Assembly (NCBI GenBank): GCA_030608075.1
Contig: JAUWIU010000014.1
Span: forward strand, 1-32,381
DNA from: Phycisphaerae bacterium
Lineage (GTDB): Bacteria; Planctomycetota; Phycisphaerae; Sedimentisphaerales; Anaerobacaceae
Direction of reading: 5' to 3'
DNA: 32,381 bases
In this document: positions 10,325-32,381 of the stretch, one piece after another
How the letters are laid out: each line of letters starts with the position of its first letter
How positions within the stretch are numbered: the first letter of the stretch is position 1
Made by a program: the position numbers and the translations under genes
Notes under the pieces: model-generated
Database searches by the model: none
Seen by the model: only the letters and a program-made list of their open reading frames with translations
Told to the model about the DNA's origin: nothing

Positions 10325-10339
10325 CTCATTATCAATGAG
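10325..10339. other. Short perfect palindrome at the GH31 stop codon
   Basis: CTCATTATCAATGAG is two 6-base perfect arms around ATC, and it contains the GH31 stop codon. It is in the 38-bp gap before ppdK. It is too weak and lacks a T-run for a terminator; it may be coincidence or a small mRNA hairpin between the two genes. Confidence 0.3.
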
Positions 10340-12791
10340 CAACGTTACCCAAAAAATTCAGTACAATCGGCTCATTTGCGCCGCCTTTTATCTTTGCCCA
10401 TATTATCTTGTCTGCCTGGTCGTAAAACCAGCCCTGAGCTGAGGAGTCGAACATTTTTTTGTGGCCGAAACAAGACAGCGGCGTTCCATTTTTTGTTACG
10501 GATTTTACGGGCATTTGCTTATACACTGCGAATACGTGGTCTCTTTCAGGGATTGCGTAGCTTCCCTTTGGAGCGCTTTTTATTACTACCAGGCCGTCTG
10601 TCTTCTCGACGCATGTAAATGTCGTTAAGGCGTAAACGCCTTTTTCATAGTCATAGCTTGTGCCGTCGTCTTCGTAAAGCTCAAAAGACGAAAGCGCCTT
10701 TGGATAGATTCTGACTGTCAGCGGGCTTTTCTTCTCATCGAGATATCTCTGGCCGGGCGGCGCCATAGGTATAATTGCGCCGGCCTTGACGAGTATAGGA
10801 ACCTTCGTAATGGGGGCATTGTAGATAATGGTCCGGCTGCCTTTGTATGTGGTGCCGTCCTGGAAATCTATCCATTGTCCCTTCGGCAGGTAGATTTCTC
10901 TGGAGAAATTGGTATCGCTCCATAACGGCGCAATCAGCAATTCTTTGCCGAGCAGATATTGGCCGTACGCGGAATACGTTTCAGGGTCGTCTTGATACTC
11001 CAGGACCAGTGCCCTCATAAGTGGTAAGCCGGTCAGCGTAGTTATTCGGGCGTATGTATATATGTAGGGCATAAGGCGGTAACGAAGCTTGGCGTAAAAG
11101 CGATAATTTCTGGCGGCGGTTTCGTCACCCGTCCAGAGTATGAGAGTCCTTTCGCCGCCGACTCCAAGCGACAGATATTGCGAGATTCTTGCAATCGGCC
11201 CGTTGAGCTTTTTCTCTCTTGTGACGTTATCTGTGTAGGTTCTGAAGGGCACGCCGGACAGGCCAAAGTTGATAGCTCCCATCATTTCGCCGTAGATGTA
11301 TTTCTTGAATTCATGTGAGTCCTGGGTGCCCTGCATTGGGTAGCGCTGGCAGCCGGCCCATAGTGAACGGCCGAATACAATACAGCGTTTGTTCGGCATG
11401 CGCGCCTTGTAGGCCTCCCAGTCGGCCATGTCATATAACATTGAGTAAAGGTTATGAAGCTCCTCGCCTGTCATACCGCTGTACGCGGAATACATAGTAC
11501 CGTGGACTTCTTCGCCGTGGTCGCCTGCTGCGCCGTCGGAGCCGAAGTCGGCCATGAAATTGTGCAGGTCTCCCCACCACTTTCTTGCTGCCGGATTACA
11601 GAAGTCAATAAGTGAGCCTTTATTCATGCCGTATCCGAAATTACCAATCCACGGGGCGCCATTTTGCATAATAAAATAGCCACGGCTGACACCTTCGGCG
11701 TGCTTGTCATTGCAATCAGCCGGTATGCCAGGGTTCTCCCAGAAAATGGAATGGCAGTTCATCTCGTGCAGCTTTTGGACCATTTTGTCTACTTTCGGAA
11801 AGGCTCCCCATCCGTCGTCCGGCCAATTCAGGTTTGGACTTGCCCATATTCCCTGGCCGCAATTTTTCGAGTGGACTCTTACGCAGTCGAGGGGCCAATC
11901 GTGCGTTTCTCTTGCGGCCTTGATAGTATTCAGAATACCGCTTTGTCCCCCCTGCTCCTTCGCCCAGGCGCTGTAGTACAACCCGAACGCCCACTTCGGC
12001 GGCAGGGGTGATTTTCCCGTAAGCTCGGTGTATCGGTCTAAAATATGCTTGAAACTCGGGCCGTAAATGAAATAGTAATCAAGCTCGCCTCCACCCGGGG
12101 CGCTGAAATAGTATGGGTCGCTCGTAAAATCAAAGATTGTTTTCCAGGTGTTGTGAAAGAATATCCCGTAACCATCGGTCGCCATAAAGAAGGGGATTGG
12201 CGTAACGTTTTCGGTTACCCAAAGCTCGCGTTTTTCTCCGCGAAGGTCGGACTTTTCATATCGCTGCCCGAGGCCGAAGAAGTGGTCGGTTGGGGTCAGT
12301 TTTTTTCTGCAGATGACCTTTTCGCCGTCGAAGCCGATAGCTCCGTCTTCACAGTCGGCATTGAGCAGCTTTCCGTTTTTGTCGTAAACGGCCAGTCTAA
12401 ACGGTGACTTGTTTACTTTCAGGGTAATGCGCCGGGTCTTTATTTCGATGCAAGCTGGTTTATCTGTTAGCGAAAAAGGCGACTGAGGCCAGTTGTACTT
12501 GATTACGACCCAGGGTTCGTTGGGCCTGAAAATGCCCGACTTTCCGGCCTGTATGCGGAGTATATCCTCTGTGCAGATTTCAATCTTAACTACGCCGTTG
12601 GTACAGGTGAACGTGATGGTATTTCCATCGACATGATACGGCTCGACGTAATTACCGATGTATGTCCAGTCGGCGTATATAGGCGTTGTGGCGAAAATCA
12701 GGCAGAGGGCACAGACGGGCAGGAGCATTGCGACCAGGTGTGTTAGTGGGGGTTTTGGGGTGTTGAAAAAGCGGATGTGGTTATTTGGCAT
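10332..12791 (-). CDS. Secreted glycoside hydrolase family 31 protein
   Basis: GH31 enzymes cleave alpha-linked glucosides, xylosides and related sugars by a retaining mechanism. The ATG at 12791 is preferred over the upstream one because GGGAAGA lies eight bases before it. This gives 819 residues, with a signal peptide near residues 1-40 (LLPVCALCLIFATTPIYA). The N-terminal beta domain includes FFGLGQRYEKSDLRG. The catalytic barrel holds AAGDHGEE, where Asp424 occupies the nucleophile position of the usual DMNE or DFGE motif. GRSLWAGCQRYP then precedes TQDSHEF, with Asp491 as candidate acid/base. A DUF5110-like beta tail follows (SSFELYEDDGTSYDYEKG). The motifs are not those of standard alpha-glucosidases, so substrate specificity is left open. 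It lies 38 bp before ppdK. Confidence 0.88.
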   Translation of the reverse strand: MPNNHIRFFNTPKPPLTHLVAMLLPVCALCLIFATTPIYADWTYIGNYVEPYHVDGNTITFTCTNGVVKIEICTEDILRIQAGKSGIFRPNEPWVVIKYNWPQSPFSLTDKPACIEIKTRRITLKVNKSPFRLAVYDKNGKLLNADCEDGAIGFDGEKVICRKKLTPTDHFFGLGQRYEKSDLRGEKRELWVTENVTPIPFFMATDGYGIFFHNTWKTIFDFTSDPYYFSAPGGGELDYYFIYGPSFKHILDRYTELTGKSPLPPKWAFGLYYSAWAKEQGGQSGILNTIKAARETHDWPLDCVRVHSKNCGQGIWASPNLNWPDDGWGAFPKVDKMVQKLHEMNCHSIFWENPGIPADCNDKHAEGVSRGYFIMQNGAPWIGNFGYGMNKGSLIDFCNPAARKWWGDLHNFMADFGSDGAAGDHGEEVHGTMYSAYSGMTGEELHNLYSMLYDMADWEAYKARMPNKRCIVFGRSLWAGCQRYPMQGTQDSHEFKKYIYGEMMGAINFGLSGVPFRTYTDNVTREKKLNGPIARISQYLSLGVGGERTLILWTGDETAARNYRFYAKLRYRLMPYIYTYARITTLTGLPLMRALVLEYQDDPETYSAYGQYLLGKELLIAPLWSDTNFSREIYLPKGQWIDFQDGTTYKGSRTIIYNAPITKVPILVKAGAIIPMAPPGQRYLDEKKSPLTVRIYPKALSSFELYEDDGTSYDYEKGVYALTTFTCVEKTDGLVVIKSAPKGSYAIPERDHVFAVYKQMPVKSVTKNGTPLSCFGHKKMFDSSAQGWFYDQADKIIWAKIKGGANEPIVLNFLGNVAH

Positions 12792-13354
12792 TTTGAAATC
12801 TTCCCTGTTTAAGTGAGTAGTTGTATCCAGGCGGTGTCGGACGCCCGAAAAGTTTTTCGTCAACGAAATCAACAAGACACAACATTAAAGCCGGGCTTTC
12901 CCATAAACAAAAGTATATCCTTGCTCAGTTACCCCGATACATCGGGACTAAGCCTCATTTGCAATAGAATATCAAATCCATCAAAAAATTCATTCTAAAA
13001 ATTTAATCTTTCCGGCTGGTTCTCGAAAGTTTCTTAGGGTAAAATCAATCCATGGAAACAGTTTTCCTGCGTGCCATCAAAAAAGACAGCCTCTATCTAC
13101 CGTCGATGAAAGGTTTTCGCCGAAATCCGAACATTGGCGATTGACATTGGTGCGCAGTTTGCATATTCTGGTCATTAATTGAAAAAGCAACGGGAAGTTG
13201 TTATACAGAAGAAAGAAGTCTGTTCGCCGCCAGAGCCATGCAGGGACAAGGTTTGGCGTTTTATACAGACTGTATAGTCATTGTTAGGTGCAAATGGATG
13301 ATTTCAGGGACAGGTTAAGAAATACAAGTCATTTTCAAGAAAGGAGAAACCGAT
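12792..13354. other. Non-coding stretch between GH31 and the accessory island
   Basis: The gap holds the promoter side of the GH31 gene (minus) and, at its right end, the first GTTAGGT-ending repeat. A 30-codon frame at 13052-13144 has no convincing ribosome binding site and is not called. Apart from these I see no gene. Confidence 0.4.
13250..13289 (+). repeat. Palindromic element A ending in GTTAGGT (attC-like)
   Basis: The element contains the perfect palindrome TATACAG-A-CTGTATA (13262-13276), followed by TCATTGTTAGGT. It aligns with the element at 13496-13555: both begin GGTTTG, share CGTTTTATAC, and share ACTGTATARTCATTGTTAGGY. The last seven bases match the GTTRRRY core of integron attC sites. 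A matching 5' core (RYYYAAC) was not found. Each copy is 20-70 bp upstream of a plus-strand gene, and the TATAGT/TATAAT within could also be read as a -10 hexamer. Confidence 0.6.
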
Positions 13355-14563: not shown

Positions 14564-16327
14564 TTAGATACGCTTGACATAGACGTAGTAAGCTCCGAGT
14601 GAGGCTCCGTTGTCGTCGGTGAACCAGGTTTGCAGGCGTGTCTTTCCGGGTTTGAGCTTTAAGGTAAATGTCGCAGCGGTTGTGTCTTCTCTGATGGGTT
14701 GTGTCAGGTCGAAGCCAGCAATTTTGAGCCTGGCAGTGGTTGCTTTGATGGCTTTTCCGCCGGGGATGGCGGCGGTGATGGGGGCGTTGACTTCTTTAGG
14801 CCAGCGACGCAGACTAATCCGGTAGTTACCCGGCCTGGCGACCTGCAGGGCCCAGAATCCATTGTTGGGCCGATTGTTTTTGCTGATTTGGGTTTGGTCC
14901 CAGGGGCCGTCTGCGTGCCAATCATGAGTGGTGAGACGGGTCGGGTTCTCGTAGTCTGAGCCGACAATTATTTCGCAATATTCATCAAAGCGTTTTGAGA
15001 CATCCTCCCACCACTTTTCATAGTCTCTGCGCAGCTCGGCGACGATATTCGGGTGTTTATCGGCGAGGTTTTGCTTTTGGCCCGGGTCGGTGTTTATGTC
15101 GTAAAGTTCTCGGCCGTTGACCAGGCGCCAGCGGTCGGTCATTACCGCGCTTTTTCTCCATTTTTTTGGATGGTCGATGCGTTGTGAGTCGGTGATGAGT
15201 GTTCGGCTGGGCCAGTTATCGGGATTGGCCGTCAAGAGCGGCACGAGGCTGCTTCCGTCAAGGTTCACAGCGGCAGCGGCGTTAATGCCACACAGTTCGA
15301 TTAAGGTGGGCAGCAAATCGACGTGGGCGGTAAGGCGGTCTGCGTCCGTGCCGGCTTTGATGCCGGCGGCCGGGTAGCGAATAAAGCATGGCACACGGTG
15401 GCCGCCGTCGTATTCACTTCCCTTTTGGCCTCTCATGCCTGCGTTGCAGACCGTGCGTCCTGCGGAGGTGCCGTTGTCAGTCATAAAAATCAGTATTGTG
15501 TTGTTCTCGATGCCAAGCTGCTTTAGCTGCGCGGTCAGCCAGCCGATGTTGTCGTCGATATTAGTAATCATACCGTAGAAATTGGGATTTACATTTTTGT
15601 TGTCGCCGTAGAGCCGGGTGTATCTTTCCGGAACTCTGTAAGGGCCATGTGCCGCGTTAGTTGGCAGATAACAGAAGAATGGGCGATTTCTATTGGCTTC
15701 GATGAATTTCATTGCCTGTTCAAACCATACATCGGTACAGTAGCCTTTGAATTTTTCCGGCCTGCCGTTATGGTAGTAGGTGTCATCGAAATAGTCATTT
15801 CCCCAGTAATCCGGGGTATTGCCGATTGCGCCTCCGCCGTGGACGAGGGCTTCGGCGAAGCCGCGGTCGTGCGGTCGGAAGGGATAATTGTCGCCGAGAT
15901 GCCATTTCCCGAATATGGCGGTCCGATAGCCGGCGTCTGAAAAGATGTCGGCGATTGTGACTTCATCCTTTCGAAGGAGCGAGCGTCCCATGATGGTATG
16001 CCAGACGCCGGTACGGTTGCAGTATCGCCCTGTCATAAGTGCGGCGCGTGTGGGCGAACACGTAGGCCCGACGTGGAAGTTTGTCAGGCGTACACTCCGG
16101 CGGTACAGCTCGTCCAGGTTGGGGGTCTTTATGACCGGATTGCCGTGGCAGGCAAGGTCGCCGTAGCCCTGGTCATCGGTTATGACGAGTATGATGTTAG
16201 GCGGTTTTGTCTTCGAACTGAGGCTGTGAGATGCAAGGGTGCAGCCCGGCAGGGTTGACAGGGCTGTTGCCGAGGCTGCGACGGAACCAATGGTTTTCAA
16301 GAATTCTCTTCTTGTTTGGGGTCTCAT
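14564..16327 (-). CDS. Tat-exported lipoprotein sulfatase with C-terminal beta domain
   Basis: Type I sulfatases remove sulfate esters from glycans or small molecules using a formylglycine made from Cys or Ser. The start ATG at 16327 follows GGGAGAAAGCT; the longer frame lacks this. The Tat motif TRREFLK (5-11) and lipobox LPGC (Cys29) indicate a folded, lipid-anchored export product. Metal ligands are in VITDDQGYGD (48-57). The modification site is Cys90 in CSPTR, so a radical SAM anSME-type maturase would be needed; none is in the window. GKWHLGDN and FMTDNGTSAG follow. After about residue 450 a beta-rich module (WALQVARPGNYRISLRRWP) is added. The total of 587 residues is longer than a bare sulfatase. 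Substrate unknown. Confidence 0.94.
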   Translation of the reverse strand: MRPQTRREFLKTIGSVAASATALSTLPGCTLASHSLSSKTKPPNIILVITDDQGYGDLACHGNPVIKTPNLDELYRRSVRLTNFHVGPTCSPTRAALMTGRYCNRTGVWHTIMGRSLLRKDEVTIADIFSDAGYRTAIFGKWHLGDNYPFRPHDRGFAEALVHGGGAIGNTPDYWGNDYFDDTYYHNGRPEKFKGYCTDVWFEQAMKFIEANRNRPFFCYLPTNAAHGPYRVPERYTRLYGDNKNVNPNFYGMITNIDDNIGWLTAQLKQLGIENNTILIFMTDNGTSAGRTVCNAGMRGQKGSEYDGGHRVPCFIRYPAAGIKAGTDADRLTAHVDLLPTLIELCGINAAAAVNLDGSSLVPLLTANPDNWPSRTLITDSQRIDHPKKWRKSAVMTDRWRLVNGRELYDINTDPGQKQNLADKHPNIVAELRRDYEKWWEDVSKRFDEYCEIIVGSDYENPTRLTTHDWHADGPWDQTQISKNNRPNNGFWALQVARPGNYRISLRRWPKEVNAPITAAIPGGKAIKATTARLKIAGFDLTQPIREDTTAATFTLKLKPGKTRLQTWFTDDNGASLGAYYVYVKRI

Positions 16328-16699
16328 AGCTTTCTCCCATTTACAGGGGACACACCATAATTTTCGCAGCATTTTTGCCCCGCAGGTCTATTCAGAAAAA
16401 GGTGAGCTGCCGAGGACACAAAAATATCTTTTCACTTTATAGTTAAGCTCTAACAAACTGCGCGCAGCAGCATTTTAGCGGTTAAGATCGCCGCGTGAAC
16501 CCACGATTCGCTCACAATGACACTTTTTTGCCAGATGTTCTTATACCACAATGCCGATTTTATTGCAACCGAAAGCAGCATTATCATACAGGAAGGATAA
16601 GGTATGTCAACGATTGACTTTTAGGGAAAAGGAAGGCGGCACAACGGGAACTTTTTGCATCAGGCATTTCTGCGGAGGTATGATTCAGCAAGCAGAGGT
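16328..16699. other. Intergenic region, no gene seen
   Basis: This stretch is the upstream region of the sulfatase and the downstream region of the isochorismatase-fold gene, both on the minus strand. It contains a 10-bp palindrome CTGCGCGCAG (about 16459-16468). A plus-strand ATG with an AAGGATAAGGT leader stops after six codons. I see no RNA gene or repeat that I can name. Confidence 0.4.
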
Positions 16700-18507: not shown

Positions 18508-19899
18508 TCACTCTTTGGGTTTCCCGACGGGCCAGTTTGGTGAATCGGTGCGTGCGGTCCTGAGGTAGTGCTCGACTGCGGCGGTTACATCGCTATGCTT
18601 GGCAGCGATATTGTGTTTTTCTCCAGGGTCGCCGGCCAGGTCGTAAAGCTCCAGCGGGGCGCCGCGTTTTGCGCGGACCGCCTTGTAATTACGCCAGCGC
18701 ACGGCCTGCTGAAAACCGCGCTCGAAGAACTCCCAGTACAAGAAGCGGTCGTGTGTTTTCTGTTGTTTGCCGAGCAATGTAGGCAGAATGTTGATACCGT
18801 CTATGTCGTGAGGCGGGTCGAGGCCGGCCAGTTCAGCCAGCGGCGGCAGGACATCGGCAAAATACCAGACGGCGTCACTTACCTTGCCGGCAGGGACCAT
18901 ACCCGGCCAGCGGACAATCATCTGTGTTCGTATACCGCCTTCGTACAGGTCGCGCTTACATCCACGCAAAGGTCCGGAACTGTCGAAGAGGCCTTCCCAA
19001 CGGCTTGCAGCTCCGTTGTCGGAACAGAAGAATACAAGCGTGTCTTTGTCGATTTTTAGTTTTTGCAGCAGGGTTATGATACGGCCGACGTCGCGGTCCA
19101 TGCGTGTAATCATCGCTGCGTGCACCCTTGCATCTTTCGGCCAGGGTTTATCAGAATAGGGCCAGGTGCCTGGTATCTGGTACTTTGCGTGCGGGATGGT
19201 GTACGGCAGGTAGAGAAAAAAGCGTTTGTTGCTGCGGCGGCGAATGAAATCAAGTGCGAAATCGGTAAACAAATCGTGGGAGTACTGTTTTTGCTGACCG
19301 TTTTTGTTTCCTTCGAGGATTATCTTTTGCTCGTTTCGCCAAAGGTATGGCGGATAATAGCTGTGGGCATTGCGCTGGTTGAGGTAGCCGAGCCACTCGT
19401 CGAACCCCTGCCGGCTGGGGATACCGGTTGTTTGCGGCTCGCCAAGTCCCCATTTCCCGGTAATTGCGGTTACGTAACCTGCCTTTTTGAGCACTTCAGC
19501 GACCGTGACATCGTCGCCTTTAAGCGGGACTCGCTTTTGCGGGCCTACGCCTGCGACTTTGCCGGAATTGCCTCGGACGCGGGTGTGTCCGGTGTGCTGT
19601 CCGGTCATCAGGACACTCCGTGAGGGGGCGCAGACGGTAGAGCCGGCGTAGCACTGCGTAAAGCGGTTGCCGTAGGCGGCGAGTTGGTCTATGTTCGGGG
19701 TATTGATGTTCTCTTGTCCGTAGCAGCCTAAGTCGCCATAGCCGAGGTCGTCGGCCATGATAAAGATGATGTTGGGCGGCTTTTCCGAAGCAGACCTGCG
19801 GATGCTAACTTTACTGCTGCAGCCGGTTGTGGGAATGGCTACCGCGACAGCGCTGCCGACGGCGAGATTAAGGAATCGTCGCCGAGTGATATTTTTCAT
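18508..19899 (-). CDS. Tat-exported lipoprotein sulfatase
   Basis: This is a 463-residue type I sulfatase. The Tat motif is TRRRFLN (5-11) and the lipobox is TTGC (Cys27), so it should be lipid-anchored after export. Metal-binding [16 protein letters not shown] is at 46-61. The formylglycine site is Cys90 in [20 protein letters not shown] and [10 protein letters not shown] hold further active-site residues; note Gly in place of the usual His in GKWHLG. Its ATG overlaps the trmD stop as ATGA, implying translational coupling to the rpsP-trmD transcript. That is an odd position for a catabolic exoenzyme. Substrate unknown. Confidence 0.94.
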
Positions 19900-21513: not shown

Positions 21514-24500
21514 TTACGCTGTTTCTCGAACGCCGACACATTTCTTTTCAACATCCGGGTAAATCTCATCAATTTTCGTCTGGATGTTTCTCGTTTCGGT
21601 TATTACCGTTGCAATTCTGCAATAGTGCTTAATATCGTCCAATGAAAGGCGGCGACCTTTTCTGTCTTTGAGCCACTTGGCCATAACCTGATACCCGCCT
21701 ATCTGGTAATCCCATATATCTTTGCCGACAGGGCCGAAATGCTGCTGTGCGTTTACGTATACGAGTTTTTTCTTCGGGTCGTAAACTATTTTTTCTACGA
21801 GATTAGTGCCTGTGCCCTCAAATCTGGCAATTGGCTTATTCAGCCTGCCGGATTTCATCAAATGCAAATCCACTAATTTCTTACCCAACCTGCCGATTGT
21901 GCGAAACACGTCGTAATCACGGCAGAAGGGAAGACGCGGAAAATCACTCTTCAAGAATTCTGCGTATCTTTGGCGATAAATATGCGAATACAAAACTGCA
22001 TATATGTAGTAAAATATGGCCTCCGGTTCCGGTTTTTCCCCGAAAGCCTTCTTCAAAGCCTCAAGCAGCCTGGGTTCTATATTGGCTTGCCGCTGATAGG
22101 TCTTACTGTTGTTGTATAAATCTTCGGCAGGATAAATATAAAGCGGGAAAATATAACTGATTTCGCGCGTTTTATCGGAAACGATACAAGACTCTACAAT
22201 TGTTTCACTAACAAGTGCGTGGTAGAAACCCACCTTGTTCTGCTGCCGACAACTCAGCAGGGCCAAATTCTCCCGCATCATATGACGCATTATATTCTTT
22301 CGAGCTCTCTCTATGACCGCATCATTATAAAAAATCCACTGCCAGTCAAAAGGCCTGTAGAAAATTTGTACTATTTGGTCTTGCCAGTCTTTCTCTGCTC
22401 TTACCCTGCTGCGAGCATCCTTAACCTTCCAATTAGTATTATCCTTCAGGTTGAATGCTTTTTTTATAATGCTGTCCGGCATGGTTTCGTCGCGGAACAT
22501 TCTTATGCGTTTTTCCAGCTCTGCCTTGTCGGCATCGATAACGAAGCTGTCACGGCTCGTTACAATCCCGACGCTGTTTACGGGAAATACATCTATAATT
22601 TTAGGGTGCTTTTCATAACCAGCTAAGAGCTTTTCGTCTCTGGGGACAAAGAAAAAGAAGCCGGATTTGGGCGTAAGCCTTTTCCATTTTGTGTTTCTTA
22701 CATGGTTGTTCTGAAGCCAGGTGTACTTGTCCCGGCGAAGTCCCCAGAGGTCTGCGTGCGAGATTTTCTTCTTCAGGCCTTGTTTTTTGACTGCCAGGAT
22801 AATCGCAACACCCTGCTGGATGTCGAATACGTTTTCATCTTTTGAGCCGTCGGGGCACTTTTCCCTTTTTTTGGCGTTGCCGTGGAGGTCAAGTACGTAG
22901 ATGTGGTCGAAGCTATTCATCAAAGACCGGCGCATACCCCTGAAAGTTGGATTGTCCAAATAGCTGTGATTGGTAATAAAGCCCAGAGCTCCCTGGCCTG
23001 CCTGGTCTATTTTCCACTGGGCAAAACGAATGAATTTGACATAGTCATCCTGGAGCCATTTAGGATTTTTCTCTCCCAGGTCTTTGCCGTCAACTTTGTA
23101 GTATTCTTTGATTTCTTTGCTAATCCACGGCCCTTTATTGGCAGAGTGTCCCGAATAGGGCGGATTTCCGAGAATGACTAAAATCGGTGATTGTTTTTTT
23201 ATAGCTCCGGCCGCGTGGGATTCCTCGGACAAAGAGCTCATGCCCGGCAGCTTGGTTTCCGCAAGTTCTGTCATATCAAGGGTGTTTGTCAGATAGAGCT
23301 TAAACCTTTCATCTTCTCCCAGCTTGTAACCAAGCTCCTCAAGCAGAAACCCCATCTTTAGATGGCCAACGGCGTACGGAGCCATCATCAATTCGAAAGC
23401 GTAGTAATTTCTTAGTATGTGTTTCCTTATCAATTCGGTTTTGCCGCCGGTTCCATAGCTATGCACAAATTCCTCAACGGCAGCCTTCGCTGCTTCTGCC
23501 AAAAATGTCAGTGTCCCCGCAGCGGGGTCGAGAACGGTCACCGAGTCGGTGGCAAAGCCGTCAGTTTTGTCGAAGTAGTCTTTCAGGATAATACTTAAGG
23601 AGCGGACGATGTAACCGACAACCTCCTGGGGCGTATAATATACGCCTCGCCGCTCTCTTTCTCTTGTGTCGTATTCGGCAAGAAAAGTTTCATAGAAATG
23701 CACAACCGGGTCCGTACCTTTGCCCTGGACGAAATATCGATGCAGAATTCCTTTTGCATCTGCAACGGCAAGCACATTTGCGATATCGTCGATTATCCAA
23801 CTGAGCTGTTGTCCCGGTTCTTCCAGCGAAACAAACCGGAACACATCGCGCAGAATGCCTATAGTTCTCGGGATATTGTCAAACGCAAGTCTTCTGTTGA
23901 ATTGCTCCTTACATCGAGTACTCGCGGCGAACAGGCCGTAAGTTATAGTCTGGGCATACATATCAGCAAAATCTTCTCCGGACAGACCCGCAATCAGGTG
24001 TTGTTGAAATGCCTCGTAAAATCCTGCCAATCTACCGTTATTTCTGTTCAGCTCGAGAAGCACCTGCTGACACAGATAATGTGTTCTGCCGGCAAGGGCT
24101 GCTGCGAGAGTTTTTGGCGTGTACGTCCGCGGCAGAGAAAAAGTGAAAAACTTATTCAACAAATCGAGAAACCTGTCTTCGTTTTCCAGAGGCGGCGGCA
24201 TTTTTAGCTGCGTAGCGACAAAAGGCCGTCCTATCTGAGTTTTGTCAACCAAAGCACCGTTTCGATATAGTCGAAACTCGAAAAAGTTCGTCAAAATGAC
24301 ATTGGCGAAAGCGCCGCGATAGCGTTTGAGCTGCTCAGATTGCTCGAGCCTGTCAAGGTTCTCCTCATCGGGTCTTTTTGCTTCAATGTAACCAACTATG
24401 TGCTGTTTACCGTCCCAAACGCGAAAGTCGGGATTGCCGGCCTCAGTTTTTTTGGGCGAAACCGTTATTTCTGTTTTTGCTCTGTTTGTCGATTGCGCAA

Positions 24501-24600
24501 AGTCCTCCATCAGGGATGCCAAAGCTTCATAATAGCTTTCTTCTCTGGCATCACCCCTTTGGGCAACTTTGAAAATTTCTTTCAAATACGTCTTTAGCAT
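21514..24600 (-). CDS. Single-chain restriction-modification enzyme (type IIG/ISP-like)
   Basis: This 1028-residue protein combines nuclease and N6-adenine methylase. The N-terminal PD-(D/E)xK-type site is NPDFRVWDGKQ to YIEAK, with Asp58, Glu73 and Lys75. A helical linker leads to the methylase: RRGVYYTPQEVV (317-328), motif I VLDPAAGTLTF (356-366) and catalytic NPPYSG at 479-484. The remaining 500 residues include the region around KDENVFDIQQGVAIIL and likely carry the target recognition domain. No helicase motifs are seen, which separates it from full type ISP enzymes that translocate on DNA. There is no good ribosome binding site; it starts 15 bp after the 114-aa gene and is probably coupled to it. 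It lies 69 bp upstream of rpsP. Confidence 0.88.
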   Translation of the reverse strand: MLKTYLKEIFKVAQRGDAREESYYEALASLMEDFAQSTNRAKTEITVSPKKTEAGNPDFRVWDGKQHIVGYIEAKRPDEENLDRLEQSEQLKRYRGAFANVILTNFFEFRLYRNGALVDKTQIGRPFVATQLKMPPPLENEDRFLDLLNKFFTFSLPRTYTPKTLAAALAGRTHYLCQQVLLELNRNNGRLAGFYEAFQQHLIAGLSGEDFADMYAQTITYGLFAASTRCKEQFNRRLAFDNIPRTIGILRDVFRFVSLEEPGQQLSWIIDDIANVLAVADAKGILHRYFVQGKGTDPVVHFYETFLAEYDTRERERRGVYYTPQEVVGYIVRSLSIILKDYFDKTDGFATDSVTVLDPAAGTLTFLAEAAKAAVEEFVHSYGTGGKTELIRKHILRNYYAFELMMAPYAVGHLKMGFLLEELGYKLGEDERFKLYLTNTLDMTELAETKLPGMSSLSEESHAAGAIKKQSPILVILGNPPYSGHSANKGPWISKEIKEYYKVDGKDLGEKNPKWLQDDYVKFIRFAQWKIDQAGQGALGFITNHSYLDNPTFRGMRRSLMNSFDHIYVLDLHGNAKKREKCPDGSKDENVFDIQQGVAIILAVKKQGLKKKISHADLWGLRRDKYTWLQNNHVRNTKWKRLTPKSGFFFFVPRDEKLLAGYEKHPKIIDVFPVNSVGIVTSRDSFVIDADKAELEKRIRMFRDETMPDSIIKKAFNLKDNTNWKVKDARSRVRAEKDWQDQIVQIFYRPFDWQWIFYNDAVIERARKNIMRHMMRENLALLSCRQQNKVGFYHALVSETIVESCIVSDKTREISYIFPLYIYPAEDLYNNSKTYQRQANIEPRLLEALKKAFGEKPEPEAIFYYIYAVLYSHIYRQRYAEFLKSDFPRLPFCRDYDVFRTIGRLGKKLVDLHLMKSGRLNKPIARFEGTGTNLVEKIVYDPKKKLVYVNAQQHFGPVGKDIWDYQIGGYQVMAKWLKDRKGRRLSLDDIKHYCRIATVITETRNIQTKIDEIYPDVEKKCVGVRETA

Positions 24601-24615: not shown

Positions 24616-24960
24616 TTACAACGTTTGTTTGCAATGCAAAGCGTAACCATTTATGAAAATCGCAAAATTCGCCGGGTCAATGTCGGCGTCACGGGCGATT
24701 GTTTTTATCTGTTCGTCGGTCAAGGTATCAGCGGCCTGTTTTTCGGCCGGCGTCATTATCGCAACGGCCTTTTTCAATTGCTCCAGCTCCTCGCTGCTCG
24801 GTGCTACTAACATCGCCAGCTCACTGGTGCCTTTGACATCTTTGAAGCGGTCTCGCACCATCATACCATATTCGCTGTCGGTGAACCGAGCTAATTTTTC
24901 GAGGTACTGCTCGAGCGAGATTTTCTTTTTGGCTGTCGTCTTATCTGCGCTTTTAGTCAT
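24616..24960 (-). CDS. Hypothetical 114-aa protein upstream of the RM gene
   Basis: I do not recognise this family. It is a charged, mostly helical soluble protein: a Lys/Thr-rich start (MTKSADKTTAKKKISLEQYL), a middle with LARFTDSEYGMMVRDRF, then a segment MTPAEKQAADTLTDEQIKTIA, and an end IFINGYALHCKQTL. There is no signal or membrane segment. Its ATG overlaps the sulfatase stop by 8 bp and it ends 15 bp before the restriction-modification gene, so all three should be co-translated. By position it could be a controller or accessory protein of the RM enzyme, but no HTH is obvious. Confidence 0.7.
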   Translation of the reverse strand: MTKSADKTTAKKKISLEQYLEKLARFTDSEYGMMVRDRFKDVKGTSELAMLVAPSSEELEQLKKAVAIMTPAEKQAADTLTDEQIKTIARDADIDPANFAIFINGYALHCKQTL

Positions 24961-26431
24961 GCTGCTTTGAGAGTATCAACGGTTTTGGGTTGGCAACGAA
25001 GCCGGCCGGCCGCTGGTTTTTGCCCGGGCGGTTTATGTCGCCGAGGTCTTCGCGGGCCTTTTCAGCCAGGGCTGTCAGGCGCCCGACCACGTCGGGGTGA
25101 GCGTCTGCGACATTTTTGGTTTCGGCGATGTCGATTGTTAAGTCATAAAGAAAGGGTGGTGCGTGGTCAGGCTCACCTTTTCGGCGGCCGGTTTTCCGCT
25201 TTAGCGCCAGGCGGAGTTTCCACCTGCCGGAGCGCACAGCCTGCAACTGCTGCCTGTAGTAATAGTAAAACGCCTCGTGCGGCGACTTTGCACCTTTTTC
25301 TCCTGCCAACAGAGGCCGGATGTCTTTGCCGTCGATAATGCGGTCGGTCGGGGGCCTGGTTCCGGCGAGGCCGGCAAAGGTCGGCAGCAGGTCGATTGTC
25401 GAAGCCAGCTCATCACAGGTTTTGCCGGCGGGAATTCTGCCGGGCCAGCGAGCGATGCACGGCACGCGCATACCGCCTTCCCACGTTGAACCCTTGTTAC
25501 CGGAAAGTGGTGCGTTGCTGCCGGCGTAATTACCGGATGCGCCGTTGTCGGAGGTGAAGACGACAAGCGTACGGCCATCGAGGTTGAGCTTTTTGAGTGC
25601 TTTCAGGATTTCACCTGTCGAGAAGTCGATTTCTTCCACCGCGTCGCCGTATGGGCCGTTTGCGCTCTTGCCGCGGAAGTTCTCGCTGCTGTGGTGCGGG
25701 TCGTGGGGCATTGTTTGGGGCAGGTAAAGGAAGAAGGGCCTGTCCTTGTTAGCGTCGATGAATCTGATTGCCTCGTGGGTGTAGCGCTGCGTGATGGTGT
25801 TCTGATTGACCGGGGCCTCGATGACCTTTTCATTCCGCAACAGGGGCAGCGGCGGATTAGCGGAGCGCTGTTCGGAACCCATATCGTTACTGTATGGGAT
25901 TCCGTAGTAATAATCGAAGCCCTGGCGTGTGGGCAGAAATTCGACCTGGTCGCCAAGGTGCCATTTACCGATGCAGGCCATGGCATAGCCACGCCGTTTC
26001 AGCAGTTCAGCGATGGTGATTTCATCCGGATTAAGGCCCTTTTTGGCAACCGGGAACAGCACCCATTCACCGCGGCTGTCCTCGTGCATATTGACGCGGC
26101 GGGGATAGCAGCCGGTCATCAAACTTGCGCGTGAGGGCGTGCAGACACCGCTTGTTACATAGAAACTCGTAAGCCGCATACCCTCGGCGGCCATGCGGTC
26201 TATGTTGGGCGTGCGATGCTTTTTCGAGCCGAAGCAGCCGAGGTCGCCGTAACCCAAATCATCGCAGAAGATAATAATGAAGTTCGGCTTTTTGGCGGTG
26301 TTAGACCGGGAATGGGTTGCGAGGTCTTCCGGCGCTGTATGCACTCTCGCTGTGCAGCCGGACAGGACGGCTGTTGCGGCGCCTGCTCCCGCAAGTCTCA
26401 GAAAGTCACGACGGTTCAGGTTTCTATTCAT
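24953..26431 (-). CDS. Tat-exported lipoprotein sulfatase
   Basis: This 492-residue type I sulfatase has Tat motif NRRDFLR (6-12) and lipobox LSGC (Cys26). Metal ligands lie in [17 protein letters not shown]. The formylglycine site is Cys97 in VCTPSRASLMTG. GKWHLGD and VFTSDNGASG complete the active-site signature. The ATG at 26431 is taken as start; a TTG at 26437 is five bases from GGAGG and is also possible. It follows ffh by 187 bp and overlaps the next gene by 8 bp. Compared with the other two sulfatases here it lacks the extra C-terminal beta domain and keeps the canonical GKWHLG. Confidence 0.94.
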   Translation of the reverse strand: MNRNLNRRDFLRLAGAGAATAVLSGCTARVHTAPEDLATHSRSNTAKKPNFIIIFCDDLGYGDLGCFGSKKHRTPNIDRMAAEGMRLTSFYVTSGVCTPSRASLMTGCYPRRVNMHEDSRGEWVLFPVAKKGLNPDEITIAELLKRRGYAMACIGKWHLGDQVEFLPTRQGFDYYYGIPYSNDMGSEQRSANPPLPLLRNEKVIEAPVNQNTITQRYTHEAIRFIDANKDRPFFLYLPQTMPHDPHHSSENFRGKSANGPYGDAVEEIDFSTGEILKALKKLNLDGRTLVVFTSDNGASGNYAGSNAPLSGNKGSTWEGGMRVPCIARWPGRIPAGKTCDELASTIDLLPTFAGLAGTRPPTDRIIDGKDIRPLLAGEKGAKSPHEAFYYYYRQQLQAVRSGRWKLRLALKRKTGRRKGEPDHAPPFLYDLTIDIAETKNVADAHPDVVGRLTALAEKAREDLGDINRPGKNQRPAGFVANPKPLILSKQHD

Positions 26432-26618
26432 GTTCAATCAAACCTCCGCTTCAAAGACAAAATCCTATGAGCAATATAATGTGTTTTTGTCGGTGCATTT
26501 GAGCCTTTCGTTTCAAATTCGGTCCAGAGCCGGCATTTGGTCTCAGCATTCAGCGCCGGTGACATTTGTTACTTTGTGGACGGCAGAACACCCAGCCGCG
26601 TGGAAAGTGCTTTTGGAA

Positions 26619-28151: not shown

Positions 28152-28180
28152 TTGATTTTCGGGTATGGATATGTTATAAT
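28152..28180 (+). promoter_or_regulatory. Sigma70-type promoter for the GH172 gene
   Basis: TTGATT (28152-28157), a 17-bp spacer and a perfect TATAAT (28175-28180). Transcription would start near 28187, about 43 bp before the ATG at 28230. This also argues against the upstream ATG/ATT-type starts in the longer frame. Confidence 0.7.
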
Positions 28181-28229
28181 ATCTATATGGTGTGAGGCAT
28201 CAATTCTTACTGAAGATTGGATTGTAGCA

Positions 28230-29990
28230 ATGGCGGCGGTGAGAATGTCCATTGGGCTGCGAATCAGCGTTTGCGTGGTTTTGTTAGTGGCGACAGAATG
28301 GTTTTGCGCCCCTGCTGCCGGATACAGTACATACACGGCCTGGAAAGATTGGGCGCGCCTTCGCGTGGGTGTTCAGGCCGGCCTGGCCTCAAGCTACGAC
28401 CGAACGGACGGCAACCACGACGCCAGCTACTATGAAGAGCCGAGCGGCGTCCGCACCGAGAGTGAAATCGTTACGGCCAAAACGATACAGGGGCCCGGCA
28501 TTATCTATCGCTTTTGGATGCCGCACTACACGGCGAAACGCAACTTCATCGTCCGGATGTACTTCGACGGCCAAGAAGACCCGTTAATCGACACCAACAG
28601 TGTCACGCTGCTGGATGGGGCGTTTAATTACTTTGCATCGCCTCTGGTTGACACCTTTGCCGGCGGTCAGGTTTGCTATGAGCCGATTGGCTTTAAGTCG
28701 TCCGTTAAGATAGAAACCGAGAATAAGCCCCTTGAGAGCTATCCGAGCTGGGACGGAGACAGGCATTATTACCAATACAGCTATCTGACGTTTCCGAGCT
28801 ACACTGATTTGGACTCTTATACGGGGACGCTCACAAGCCAACAGCAGTCCGCCCGGGCTGAGGTTGTGTCTCTGTTCGATAATGTCGGCAGCCATCCGGA
28901 TACGGCGGGCGGTATCAATGACGTCAACGATATCAATACACCGGGGACGGTGATTGCCCCCAATTCCAGCCTGACCCTGGCTGATGTAAACGGTCCCGGT
29001 ATCGTTCGGAAACTGACTGTAGATGTCAATGACGCCAACGACGCAGAACTTGACGGATTACGGCTGCGTGTTTTCTACGACAGTAATTCCACCGCCGCAA
29101 TTGATGTGTCCGTAGGCGATTTCTTTGGCGCAGGTAAAGAAAGAGCGCCGTATAAGAGCCTTCCATTAGGGACGGATTCGGATGAGGGCTTTTATTGTTA
29201 CTGGCCGATGCCTTTTCGCGAATCCATATCGATGCAGTTGTACAACAGTACCGGCACCGGCATCGATGTAAATTCGGCAGTTGTTCAATATGAGCGGCAG
29301 GCAAATACTGACAAAATGTGTTACCTGCACGTTACCAGCAATACTTCGGTCAGACAGGCCGGCCAGATTTATCATCCGATGGTTTCGGCCAATGGATGCG
29401 GGCACTATGTTGGGAATCTGCTTTACGTTGAGCAGGAAAGCTACGACTTTGCCATGCTGGAAGGCGACGAGATAATTACCGTGGACGGCGAAAATGTCTT
29501 GAACGGGACGGGACTGGAAGACGCTTACAATGGCGGCTATTACTATAATTGGGTAGCCTGTGGGGGTCTTACGGAGCCGGAGGGCCCTCGGCCGCGGTCG
29601 GCAATCAGACCGCTGTGCGGGATTCTGCACGTGCATCGCGAGTCAGGCGTTGACTATGCGAGAGCGGACCAGTACAGGTGGCAAATCGCCGACTGTGTGC
29701 CGTTTTCGAAATCAATCGAGGTGAAGATTGAAAACCGATATGCCTTTAGCGGGGATGACGTTTGCTCCCCTGCGAAATGGACGTCAGTAGCATTTTGGTA
29801 TAAATATCCTTGTCTCAAGGGCGATTTTGACCGGGATTGCAACGTTGACGCTTATGATTTTGCCGTTTTTGCCTCGCATTGGCAACAGGACGACTGCGGC
29901 GGAGCGGATGAATGCGGCGGGGCCGATTTTAATCAAAGCCAACAGGTCGACATGAAAGACCTTGCGGTTCTGGTTGAAAACTGGCTGTAA
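28230..29990 (+). CDS. Secreted GH172 (DUF2961) protein with dockerin-type module
   Basis: The start at 28230 (MAAVRMSIGLRIS) lies downstream of a promoter and gives a signal peptide ending near CAPAAG; 28245 is also possible. The 586-residue protein has DUF2961/GH172 motifs: GPGIIYRFWMPHY, FYCYWPMPFRESI and GTGLEDAYNGGYYYNW. GH172 members include difructose-anhydride-forming enzymes and act on fructofuranosyl or arabinofuranosyl linkages, some as trimers. The last 45 residues hold two EF-hand-like loops, DFDRDCNVDAYDFAVFASHW and DFNQSQQVDMKDLAVLVENW. These form a dockerin-type calcium-binding module common at the end of planctomycete secreted proteins. No cohesin is in the window. The gene is divergent from ffh. 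Confidence 0.88.
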   Translation: MAAVRMSIGLRISVCVVLLVATEWFCAPAAGYSTYTAWKDWARLRVGVQAGLASSYDRTDGNHDASYYEEPSGVRTESEIVTAKTIQGPGIIYRFWMPHYTAKRNFIVRMYFDGQEDPLIDTNSVTLLDGAFNYFASPLVDTFAGGQVCYEPIGFKSSVKIETENKPLESYPSWDGDRHYYQYSYLTFPSYTDLDSYTGTLTSQQQSARAEVVSLFDNVGSHPDTAGGINDVNDINTPGTVIAPNSSLTLADVNGPGIVRKLTVDVNDANDAELDGLRLRVFYDSNSTAAIDVSVGDFFGAGKERAPYKSLPLGTDSDEGFYCYWPMPFRESISMQLYNSTGTGIDVNSAVVQYERQANTDKMCYLHVTSNTSVRQAGQIYHPMVSANGCGHYVGNLLYVEQESYDFAMLEGDEIITVDGENVLNGTGLEDAYNGGYYYNWVACGGLTEPEGPRPRSAIRPLCGILHVHRESGVDYARADQYRWQIADCVPFSKSIEVKIENRYAFSGDDVCSPAKWTSVAFWYKYPCLKGDFDRDCNVDAYDFAVFASHWQQDDCGGADECGGADFNQSQQVDMKDLAVLVENWL

Positions 29991-30151: not shown

Positions 30152-30973
30152 TTAAACCGGATAGACCAACAACTGCTCTCTCAGCAATTCGTATATTTTT
30201 TTCTCTTCTTTAATCGCTTCCTGTGCGGTATTCCTGAATTCGGCTTTCAATTCGTCAAAATCCATCGCCTTAAGAGCAGCCGAATCTTTCTTGTCTCCGC
30301 CCTTTGCATTTGCGGAGATGAACTTAGCCATGGTTTCGGCGGCCATTTCCCGAATGAGCTGCCACAGCTCCCTGCCGTCCTTGGCTGCGATGGCCCTGCC
30401 CAGGGCCAGGGACAAGGACAGGATGGCATTCATCCCCAGCACTCCTTTTCTCTGCATTATATGTATCTTTTCCTCGTTTGTAGCATTGTCGCTGAGTATT
30501 CCCGCGGCTACAGCCTGTTCATTTTCCAGCCTGAGCAATTCTCTGTCCACCTCCAGCAGGCTGCCGAGCTGTGAAATGCTCTTTCCTGTAAAGGCATTTG
30601 CCAGTACGGTCTCGATATGCTCAACGGCGTCCATACAGCCCTTGCCCTCATAGCGTTTGGCCTTTTTCCAGAGACCCAAAAGTTCATTATCGTTTTTAGC
30701 CTGAATGTTCGTGAACTCCAGGCCATCCCTAAATCGATAGGTCCCGTCTCCGGCATCTTTGAATAAATCAGGGTACTGCTTGGTAAGTTTGCCGGGCCGT
30801 ATGATGCTGTCGACGTAATGGATTGCCTCATCCACGCCGGCTGAAGTGCCCAGCGGGGTTGCCCCTTTGAAGCGAATAACCCCGGTCTTGCCGAGGAACA
30901 AGGTTGCAGCGGCGGAAGGAATACCGGCATTGGTCGCCTCTTCCGTCCCGCTGACAGCTTCAATGGCCAACAT
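30152..30973 (-). CDS. Enolase N-terminal-domain-like protein, encoded after the barrel
   Basis: This 273-residue frame resembles the enolase N-terminal domain, not the barrel. The start MLAIEAVSGTEEATNAG aligns with the place of the usual DSRGNPT strand but lacks that motif. TPLGTSAGVDEAIHYVD stands where enolases have PSGASTGEHEA. YEGKGCMDAVEHIETVL and KGVLGMNAILSLSLALGRA match the family closely. A helical, charged tail of about 70 residues ends the protein. The ATG directly follows the TGA of the upstream barrel ORF in the same frame, so domain order at DNA level is reversed relative to normal enolase. Either two coupled subunits or one permuted chain cut by TGA is possible. Confidence 0.6.
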   Translation of the reverse strand: MLAIEAVSGTEEATNAGIPSAAATLFLGKTGVIRFKGATPLGTSAGVDEAIHYVDSIIRPGKLTKQYPDLFKDAGDGTYRFRDGLEFTNIQAKNDNELLGLWKKAKRYEGKGCMDAVEHIETVLANAFTGKSISQLGSLLEVDRELLRLENEQAVAAGILSDNATNEEKIHIMQRKGVLGMNAILSLSLALGRAIAAKDGRELWQLIREMAAETMAKFISANAKGGDKKDSAALKAMDFDELKAEFRNTAQEAIKEEKKIYELLREQLLVYPV

Positions 30974-31816
30974 TCAAATCAAGAGACCGGCAAGGTCAAC
31001 TTCGGCGGCGGCGGGTACAAGCTGGACGTCACTTTGGCCTGTTAATGTGCAGACCAATTCCTTAAGATTCTTTTCGATTTCCTCTCTTCTGTCCTGCGTC
31101 AGCTCCCTCTGGCTGGCTTTTGCCAATGCGATTATTTCCATTACACGGCCATACTTTTGCAGTCTTTCGGTATTGGCTCCACCCCCGGCTTTCATCCCCA
31201 AGGCATTCATAGCCGTAGCAATTTCCGCTTCAAAGGGGTCGTTGGGTGACTTGGAGCGATGAGAGACAATCAGGTCGGCACCGTAAGCCAAAGATGTGAG
31301 CATAGCCAGTACGGTTTCCGACAGGGTTCCAATCTGGTTGGCTTTAATAAGGGTAGAGTTGATTTCGCCGTCCTTTGCGCATTTTTCAATGTTCTCGTCC
31401 TTGGTCGTAACCAGGTCATCACCGATGATAAATATTTTGTCACGGAAGCCTTCGATATTTCTTTCTTTATCACCGTGCATCAGAAGTTTCCAGCCGGCGT
31501 GGTCCAATTCGCCAAAGCCGTCCTCGATGGAAAGTACGGGTATTCCATCTTCCATGGCCTGTCTGTAAAGCTCCAGCACTTCATCCCGGCTCATATCAAC
31601 CTTGCTCTTATCCCTCCAGAATCGGTACATTCCTACGGAATCCGTTTGGCCCGTTTCCTCCCGGTAGGCGTTTTCCAGCTCGGAAGCCGCAGGGTCAAGA
31701 GCAATGGCCACATCCACTCCCGGCGTATACTCACAATCGAGAATGGTCTGCTTCATCAGTCTCCACATCCTCTGCTCAGGCACCCTGTCTTCAGGCTCTT
31801 TATCAATATATGGCAC
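30974..31816 (-). CDS. Enolase-like catalytic barrel (C-terminal part)
   Basis: Enolase converts 2-phosphoglycerate to PEP. This 280-residue frame holds most catalytic-barrel signatures: ALDPAASELENAY (metal Asp), LSIEDGFGELDHAGW (metal Glu), IIGDDLVTT (metal Asp), STLIKANQIGTLSET (catalytic Lys), VSHRSKSPNDP (His-Arg-Ser) and MKAGGGANTERLQKYG (Lys). The nominal start is GTG in LVPYID, but homology continues upstream in another frame (LKEVLESAPGAKVMGIGLE), so translation from here would omit the first part of the barrel. One added A near 31835 would restore GLEKGGLVP. The frame ends in TGA at the domain boundary. Confidence 0.75.
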   Translation of the reverse strand: MPYIDKEPEDRVPEQRMWRLMKQTILDCEYTPGVDVAIALDPAASELENAYREETGQTDSVGMYRFWRDKSKVDMSRDEVLELYRQAMEDGIPVLSIEDGFGELDHAGWKLLMHGDKERNIEGFRDKIFIIGDDLVTTKDENIEKCAKDGEINSTLIKANQIGTLSETVLAMLTSLAYGADLIVSHRSKSPNDPFEAEIATAMNALGMKAGGGANTERLQKYGRVMEIIALAKASQRELTQDRREEIEKNLKELVCTLTGQSDVQLVPAAAEVDLAGLLI

Positions 31817-31890
31817 CAGACCGCCCTTTCAAGCCCGATGCCCATAACCTTTGCACCAGGCGCCGATTCAAGAACCTCCTTCAAACGATA

Positions 31891-32381
31891 CTATAATTTG
31901 ACCGTCATTTCCTGTGCATCTTCATAAGTCTTCGCCGAAAGCGGCATGAACATACTTTCCTGCATACTGATATTACTTTCGGGATATTCCTTTTCTGTAT
32001 GCCGGCCTCCCATAGCGCAATTCCTGAACTGCCAGGGAGCTTCAACCTCCGTTCCGTTCTTTAGGGTAACGGCCTGCATTCTGGTTTTAAGCATCTTTTC
32101 CCTGACCTTGCCGACTGTGGCCAGCCAGGTTTCCTCTGAAACCGCCCGGGCTGCTCGCTCTGCCCGCTCCCGGGCTTTTTTCTCTCTCATCTTAAACTCT
32201 TTGAGTTTGCCGCGGTCGGCTAACAAGCGGTCGAGCAGGCCGACCAGGCCCGGAGCAAGGAAAAATCTGCCCACGTATATTGCGGCTTCATTGCCGAGCA
32301 TTAATCCGGCCGCCAGGCAGACAACTGCTACGGGCAGTGTCGCTGTTGCCAGATAAGCGCTCCAGACGGGTCCCGACGCCG
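31891..32381 (-). CDS. Partial ORF: membrane/coiled segment fused to start of the enolase-like barrel
   Basis: The frame is open at the window edge, so its start is unknown; the first internal ATG is at 32301. From the edge it encodes a hydrophobic stretch (LPVAVVCLAAGLML, then VGRFFLAPGLVGLL), a charged helical region (KLKEFKMREKKARERAERAA), and then sequence typical of the enolase linker and first barrel strands: PWQFRNCAMGGRHTEKEY for the usual NGG-H loop, and NISMQESMFMPLSAKTYEDA for the Q-E motif with its catalytic Glu. It stops at TAG (31891-31893) after EMTVKL, and enolase-like sequence (YRLKEVLES) resumes immediately after in the same frame. The enolase normally has its N-domain here; instead something membrane-like is seen. 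Confidence 0.5.
   Translation of the reverse strand, partial: ASGPVWSAYLATATLPVAVVCLAAGLMLGNEAAIYVGRFFLAPGLVGLLDRLLADRGKLKEFKMREKKARERAERAARAVSEETWLATVGKVREKMLKTRMQAVTLKNGTEVEAPWQFRNCAMGGRHTEKEYPESNISMQESMFMPLSAKTYEDAQEMTVKL

Follow-up and report, generated by a model that had tools for sequence, protein, structure and literature searches.

The gene at the end of the stretch of DNA analysed here (the window, 32,381 nucleotides) quite probably belongs to a family of circularly permuted enolases anchored in the cytoplasmic membrane, of which the window copy would be a 5'-truncated member that was recently broken or is mis-sequenced. From N- to C-terminus, such a protein would consist of a multi-helix membrane domain resembling site-2 proteases (S2P, family M50), a helical linker, the TIM barrel of enolase, a linker joining the old termini, and the cap, which is the N-terminal domain of normal enolases.

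Domain order in the window and in intact relatives

An earlier note on the window had described two adjacent open reading frames (ORFs) on the minus strand that appeared to encode the enolase domains in swapped order. The barrel ORF (30974-31816) matches Enolase_C (PF00113) with an E-value of 1e-32 (114 bits, cut-off 21.5), and the cap ORF (30152-30973) matches Enolase_N (PF03952) at 3e-10 (40.7 bits, cut-off 35); the latter match, whose absence the note had named as a refutation, is thus significant. Inspection of the ORFs confirmed that the barrel lies 5' of the cap and in the same frame.

Within the host family, the cap ORF has six relatives (67–76% identity) and the barrel ORF seven (76–85%). 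Two exceptions aside, one truncated where its contig ends and one with a gap inside, these carry barrel and cap in one ORF of 899–919 amino acids. Using their alignment as query on the genome collection yielded 40 loci; two of these, L084 and L085, are normal enolases and were rejected as members. Thirty complete permuted loci were aligned and form the basis of all counts out of 30 below. Each of these intact relatives is a single ORF of 850–1211 amino acids with the order membrane domain, linker, barrel and cap. Their hosts are Phycisphaerae/Sedimentisphaerales and other Planctomycetota, Margulisbacteria, Fermentibacteria and Chloroflexota, with permuted proteins at 47–65% identity in Ca. Fermentibacteria, WOR-1/Margulisbacteria, Saganbacteria and a Dehalococcoidia MAG. 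The swapped order thus recurs in related genomes and in independent assemblies of several phyla, which rules out a misassembly as its cause. A normal N-terminal domain just upstream of the barrel is likewise ruled out, as the relatives have the membrane domain at that place. In a phylogenetic tree the permuted proteins form one group (100/100), in which the window copy adjoins L048.

Could the two domains be separate subunits, as the note had offered as one alternative? The TGA followed by an ATG that separates the ORFs in the window would favour a barrel protein and a cap protein translated side by side. All 30 intact relatives are single chains without a stop between the domains, however, and the TGA stands at a conserved Arg/Lys codon with more lesions upstream. 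For the family this alternative is refuted, and for the window it is highly improbable. The other alternative, a circular permutant, fits the uninterrupted chains of the relatives and the swapped blocks in which their profile pairs with the structure of an enolase (4mks): query positions 291–580 correspond to chain residues 148–411, and 634–838 to 3–134. When the sequences are inspected, the LPVP at the cap/barrel junction of normal enolase has its counterpart in the new C-terminus (...LPVYP), the barrel begins at APWQFRN, and a linker of about 50 residues connects the old termini. Judged by its sequences, the gene family is a natural circular permutation of enolase, cut at the cap/barrel junction.

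In the intact proteins Pfam recognizes Enolase_C, then Enolase_N, with a faint Peptidase_M50 signal N-terminally. PF00113 scores 156–173 bits in intact relatives (cut-off 21.5); two of them score 32.6 and 32.9 bits with PF03952, slightly under the cut-off of 35. With TIGR01060 the permuted proteins reach 193–241 bits, under the cut-off of 300, as is expected for a permuted chain, and they are therefore not filed as plain Eno equivalogs. A full-length structure model (pLDDT 79, pTM 0.74) places the barrel at residues 287–591, and this part superimposes on solved enolases with Z 24.4 and an rmsd of 3.0 over 263 residues. After un-permuting, S39, H159, E168, E211, D246, E295, D320, K345, H373, R374, S375 and K396 (yeast numbering) are present in 30/30 permuted and 16/16 normal enolases. 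The replacement of the DSRGNPT strand, which the earlier note had spotted, also holds for the family: it reads T-x-A-G-x-P, the D being T in 30/30 and the R being A, T or S, while G and P are kept. The gene family is under sequence constraint, with a dN of about 0.10–0.20 at saturated dS.

Searches for relatives on viral contigs and on plasmids found none, and no unfused permuted enolase turned up among 301 Chloroflexota or 74 Margulisbacteria genomes, every match being fused. Gene neighbours are common only locally and none is metabolic. Among the Margulisbacteria-type proteins, L069, L071 and L075 continue past the cap with extra C-terminal sequence (ORFs of 1136–1211 amino acids), the scanned pieces of which have no Pfam match. 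A further membrane-domain copy, L083 (CP070782), is followed by a run of N, and Enolase_C is unmatched in that 6.5-Mb genome.

The damaged copy and its surroundings

The window is the complete contig C62 of a 1.5-Mb MAG that is 67% complete. Alignment to the intact relatives L048, L077 and L046 shows that what remains of the gene spans 30152-32381 on the minus strand and is the 3' part of an M50-like/barrel/cap fusion, with three lesions and with its 5' part missing at the contig end (32381). The two adjacent ORFs of the earlier note are pieces of one broken gene, and the note overlooked both the membrane fusion and the damage.

In the direction of transcription, the translation aligned with relatives gives first what is left of the M50-like membrane domain, its C-terminal end (32150-32381), including its invariant Asp within LLDRLLAD (codon 32232-32230); the portion with the HExxH motif falls beyond the contig end. 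The barrel start (APWQFRNC..., 31894-32040) is defined by a PF00113 match at 31828-32031 and by the 30-sequence alignment, and holds the equivalents of H159 and E168 at about 32001 and 31959. This 5' section, from about 32040, lies in a different frame from ORF 30974-31816. Two lesions follow: a nonsense TAG at 31891-31893, inside the PF00113 match, replaces a conserved CAG (Gln), and a 2-nt insertion at about 31828-31829 causes a frameshift beside the E211-equivalent codon. The remainder of the barrel and the linker to the cap occupy 30977-31816. At the linker/cap border the third lesion, the TGA at 30974-30976, replaces an Arg codon (Lys in some relatives), so that the TGA-then-ATG of the earlier note is present, not as a gene boundary but as a lesion within one chain. 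The C-terminally placed cap (30152-30973) has its S39-equivalent codon at 30844-30842. All three lesions are absent from every relative compared, and the window copy as sequenced cannot make the full protein. The barrel in the window also holds a 24-nt in-frame insertion (31454-31477, HGDKERNI), and a similar insert occurs in the Fermentibacteria protein L068.

How old is the damage? On the branch of the window copy 57 changes are synonymous and 10, counting the stops, are non-synonymous; for L048 the counts are 42 and 12. The window branch is thus without relaxed selection, which argues that selection was in force until recently and that the damage is either recent or a sequence error. The copy is therefore either a very recent pseudogene or a bearer of errors near the contig end. 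That the gene is intact in the organism, the nonsense codons and the insertion being sequencing or assembly errors, has close to an even chance, a little below it. It would agree with the branch counts and with the search for a second enolase in the window's genome, which found none besides this broken copy. Against it stand the clustering of three independent lesions in some 920 bases, and the 19 ABC-transporter matches in the same genome without an internal stop, by which errors would be uncommon elsewhere. The genes for pyruvate phosphate dikinase, PriA and SRP54 are intact in the same window.

As to the surroundings, the intact pyruvate phosphate dikinase (7588-10293, minus strand), a PEP-metabolising enzyme, is encoded some 20 kb away from the damaged enolase. 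Three sulfatases (14564-16372, 18508-19899 and 24953-26437, all on the minus strand), a GH31 glycosidase (10332-12875) and a DUF2961-dockerin protein (28152-29990, plus strand) share this 32-kb contig, which by its predicted gene content is a polysaccharide-degrading setting. A Type ISP restriction-modification enzyme (21514-24600, minus strand; Type_ISP_C, N6_Mtase) adjoins rpsP and trmD.

The membrane domain

Residues ~30–260 of the intact proteins comprise hydrophobic helices with an HExxH motif and an Asp, and the motif residues are invariant. H105, E106 and H109 of the HExxH are kept in 30/30 and are located in helix 85–115 of the model; D227, in LLDRLLAD, is likewise kept in 30/30 and lies outside the hhalign match to M50. 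Peptidase_M50 (PF02163) matches 25 of 31 members at E-values up to 1, the best being 1.3e-5, and L012 scores 12.3 bits against a cut-off of 27.2. Alignment with hhalign to two local sets of M50 proteins gave probabilities of 68% (E 5e-5) and 12%. In the model of the domain (pLDDT 86) a short β-hairpin lies between helices, reminiscent of the sheet that re-enters the membrane in SpoIVFB, an S2P protease (PMC11486902). Fold searches of the PDB with this model gave no significant match and no S2P structure, and a sequence search matched no solved S2P structure. By its motifs the domain looks like an S2P, and we regard it as a putative M50 zinc protease.

Such a domain opens a further view of the fusion, namely that of a metabolite-sensing protease, in which the M50-like domain carries out regulated intramembrane proteolysis and the enolase part senses 2-phosphoglycerate or phosphoenolpyruvate (PEP), attached in the manner of the CBS domains of other S2Ps; a normal enolase would then do the catalysis where present. 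The S2P proteases of the SpoIVFB/mjS2P group do bear a C-terminal cytosolic CBS domain (PMC11486902), the invariance of HExxH and Asp suggests a role of the membrane domain beyond anchoring, and about 40% of the family genomes with the permuted gene also hold a normal enolase. Yet every catalytic enolase residue is kept and many hosts have no other detected enolase, membership in M50 is weak, and there is no conserved neighbour gene as a candidate substrate, so that we consider this reading rather unlikely. A bifunctional protein, in which the substrate-driven closure of an active permuted enolase would gate an intramembrane zinc protease of the S2P type fused to it, also seems unlikely.

Function, hosts and known systems

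Whether hosts of the permuted gene also hold a normal enolase was surveyed across the host family, in 89 genomes, nearly all of them MAGs, which are incomplete and not phylogenetically independent. The permuted gene is present in 25 of the 89. A normal enolase went undetected in 15 of these 25 genomes and in 10 of the 64 without the permuted gene (p=1e-4); among genomes at least 85% complete, the figures are 11 of 19 and 1 of 39 (Fisher p=3e-6). Two permuted-only genomes, CP070675 and CP070678, are single-contig assemblies of 87–89% completeness. PEP metabolism is present in permuted-only genomes, since pyruvate kinase was found in 15 of 16, the window's own included. The normal enolases of four genomes that hold both forms (L031-L034) form a clade (100/100) separate from L019-L029, and their Enolase_C scores are below those of normal enolases from genomes lacking the permuted gene.

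The invariant enolase residues, the absence of a normal enolase from many assemblies and the retained pyruvate kinase together suggest that the permuted protein probably works as an enolase while tethered to the membrane; the loss of the DSRG motif counts against this. The cap would be expected to fold back onto the barrel, with the Ser39-type loop closing over the latter, and 2-phosphoglycerate would be converted to PEP by standard enolase chemistry, with Lys345 as the base, Glu211 as the acid and Mg on Asp246, Glu295 and Asp320. As the sole detected enolase in many hosts, the protein probably serves glycolysis or gluconeogenesis from a predicted position at the membrane. In hosts that also have a normal enolase it could serve another role.

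Enolase is among the most conserved metabolic enzymes. If the proposed function is true, the permuted protein, apparently the sole enolase in many species, would show that even an enzyme at the core of glycolysis is open to rewiring and to relocation to the membrane. It would also pose the question whether the M50-like protease domain senses or channels glycolytic metabolites. Annotation that seeks a normal enolase would score permuted-only genomes as being without the enolase step. Our search of open-access papers found no description of a permuted enolase or of an M50-enolase fusion.

Three known systems lend themselves to comparison. With enolase itself (Eno; PF03952 and PF00113, TIGR01060) the permuted protein has both domains, 12/12 tested residues and the barrel fold (Z 24) in common, whereas it differs by its barrel-then-cap order (30/30), its N-terminal membrane domain, the altered DSRG strand and an identity of about 31–34% to normal enolases. 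From sequence comparison, it most likely works like enolase, while order, fusion and the lost DSRG set it apart from plain members of that family.

With site-2 proteases (Peptidase M50, PF02163; SpoIVFB, mjS2P) it shares an HExxH motif on a helix predicted to lie in the membrane, an invariant Asp further along the chain, the predicted short β-hairpin between helices and an extra C-terminal domain attached via a helical linker. The profile similarity is weak, however, the usual LDG motif is LDR, and the attached domain is an enolase and not CBS or PDZ.

The third system is the enolase of E. coli, which is membrane-associated through RNase E in the degradosome. An inner-membrane location of enolase, predicted for the permuted protein, would be the common feature. 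The E. coli enzyme is of normal order and without a membrane domain of its own, and is placed there by protein-protein contact, whereas the permuted protein would carry its anchor within the same chain.
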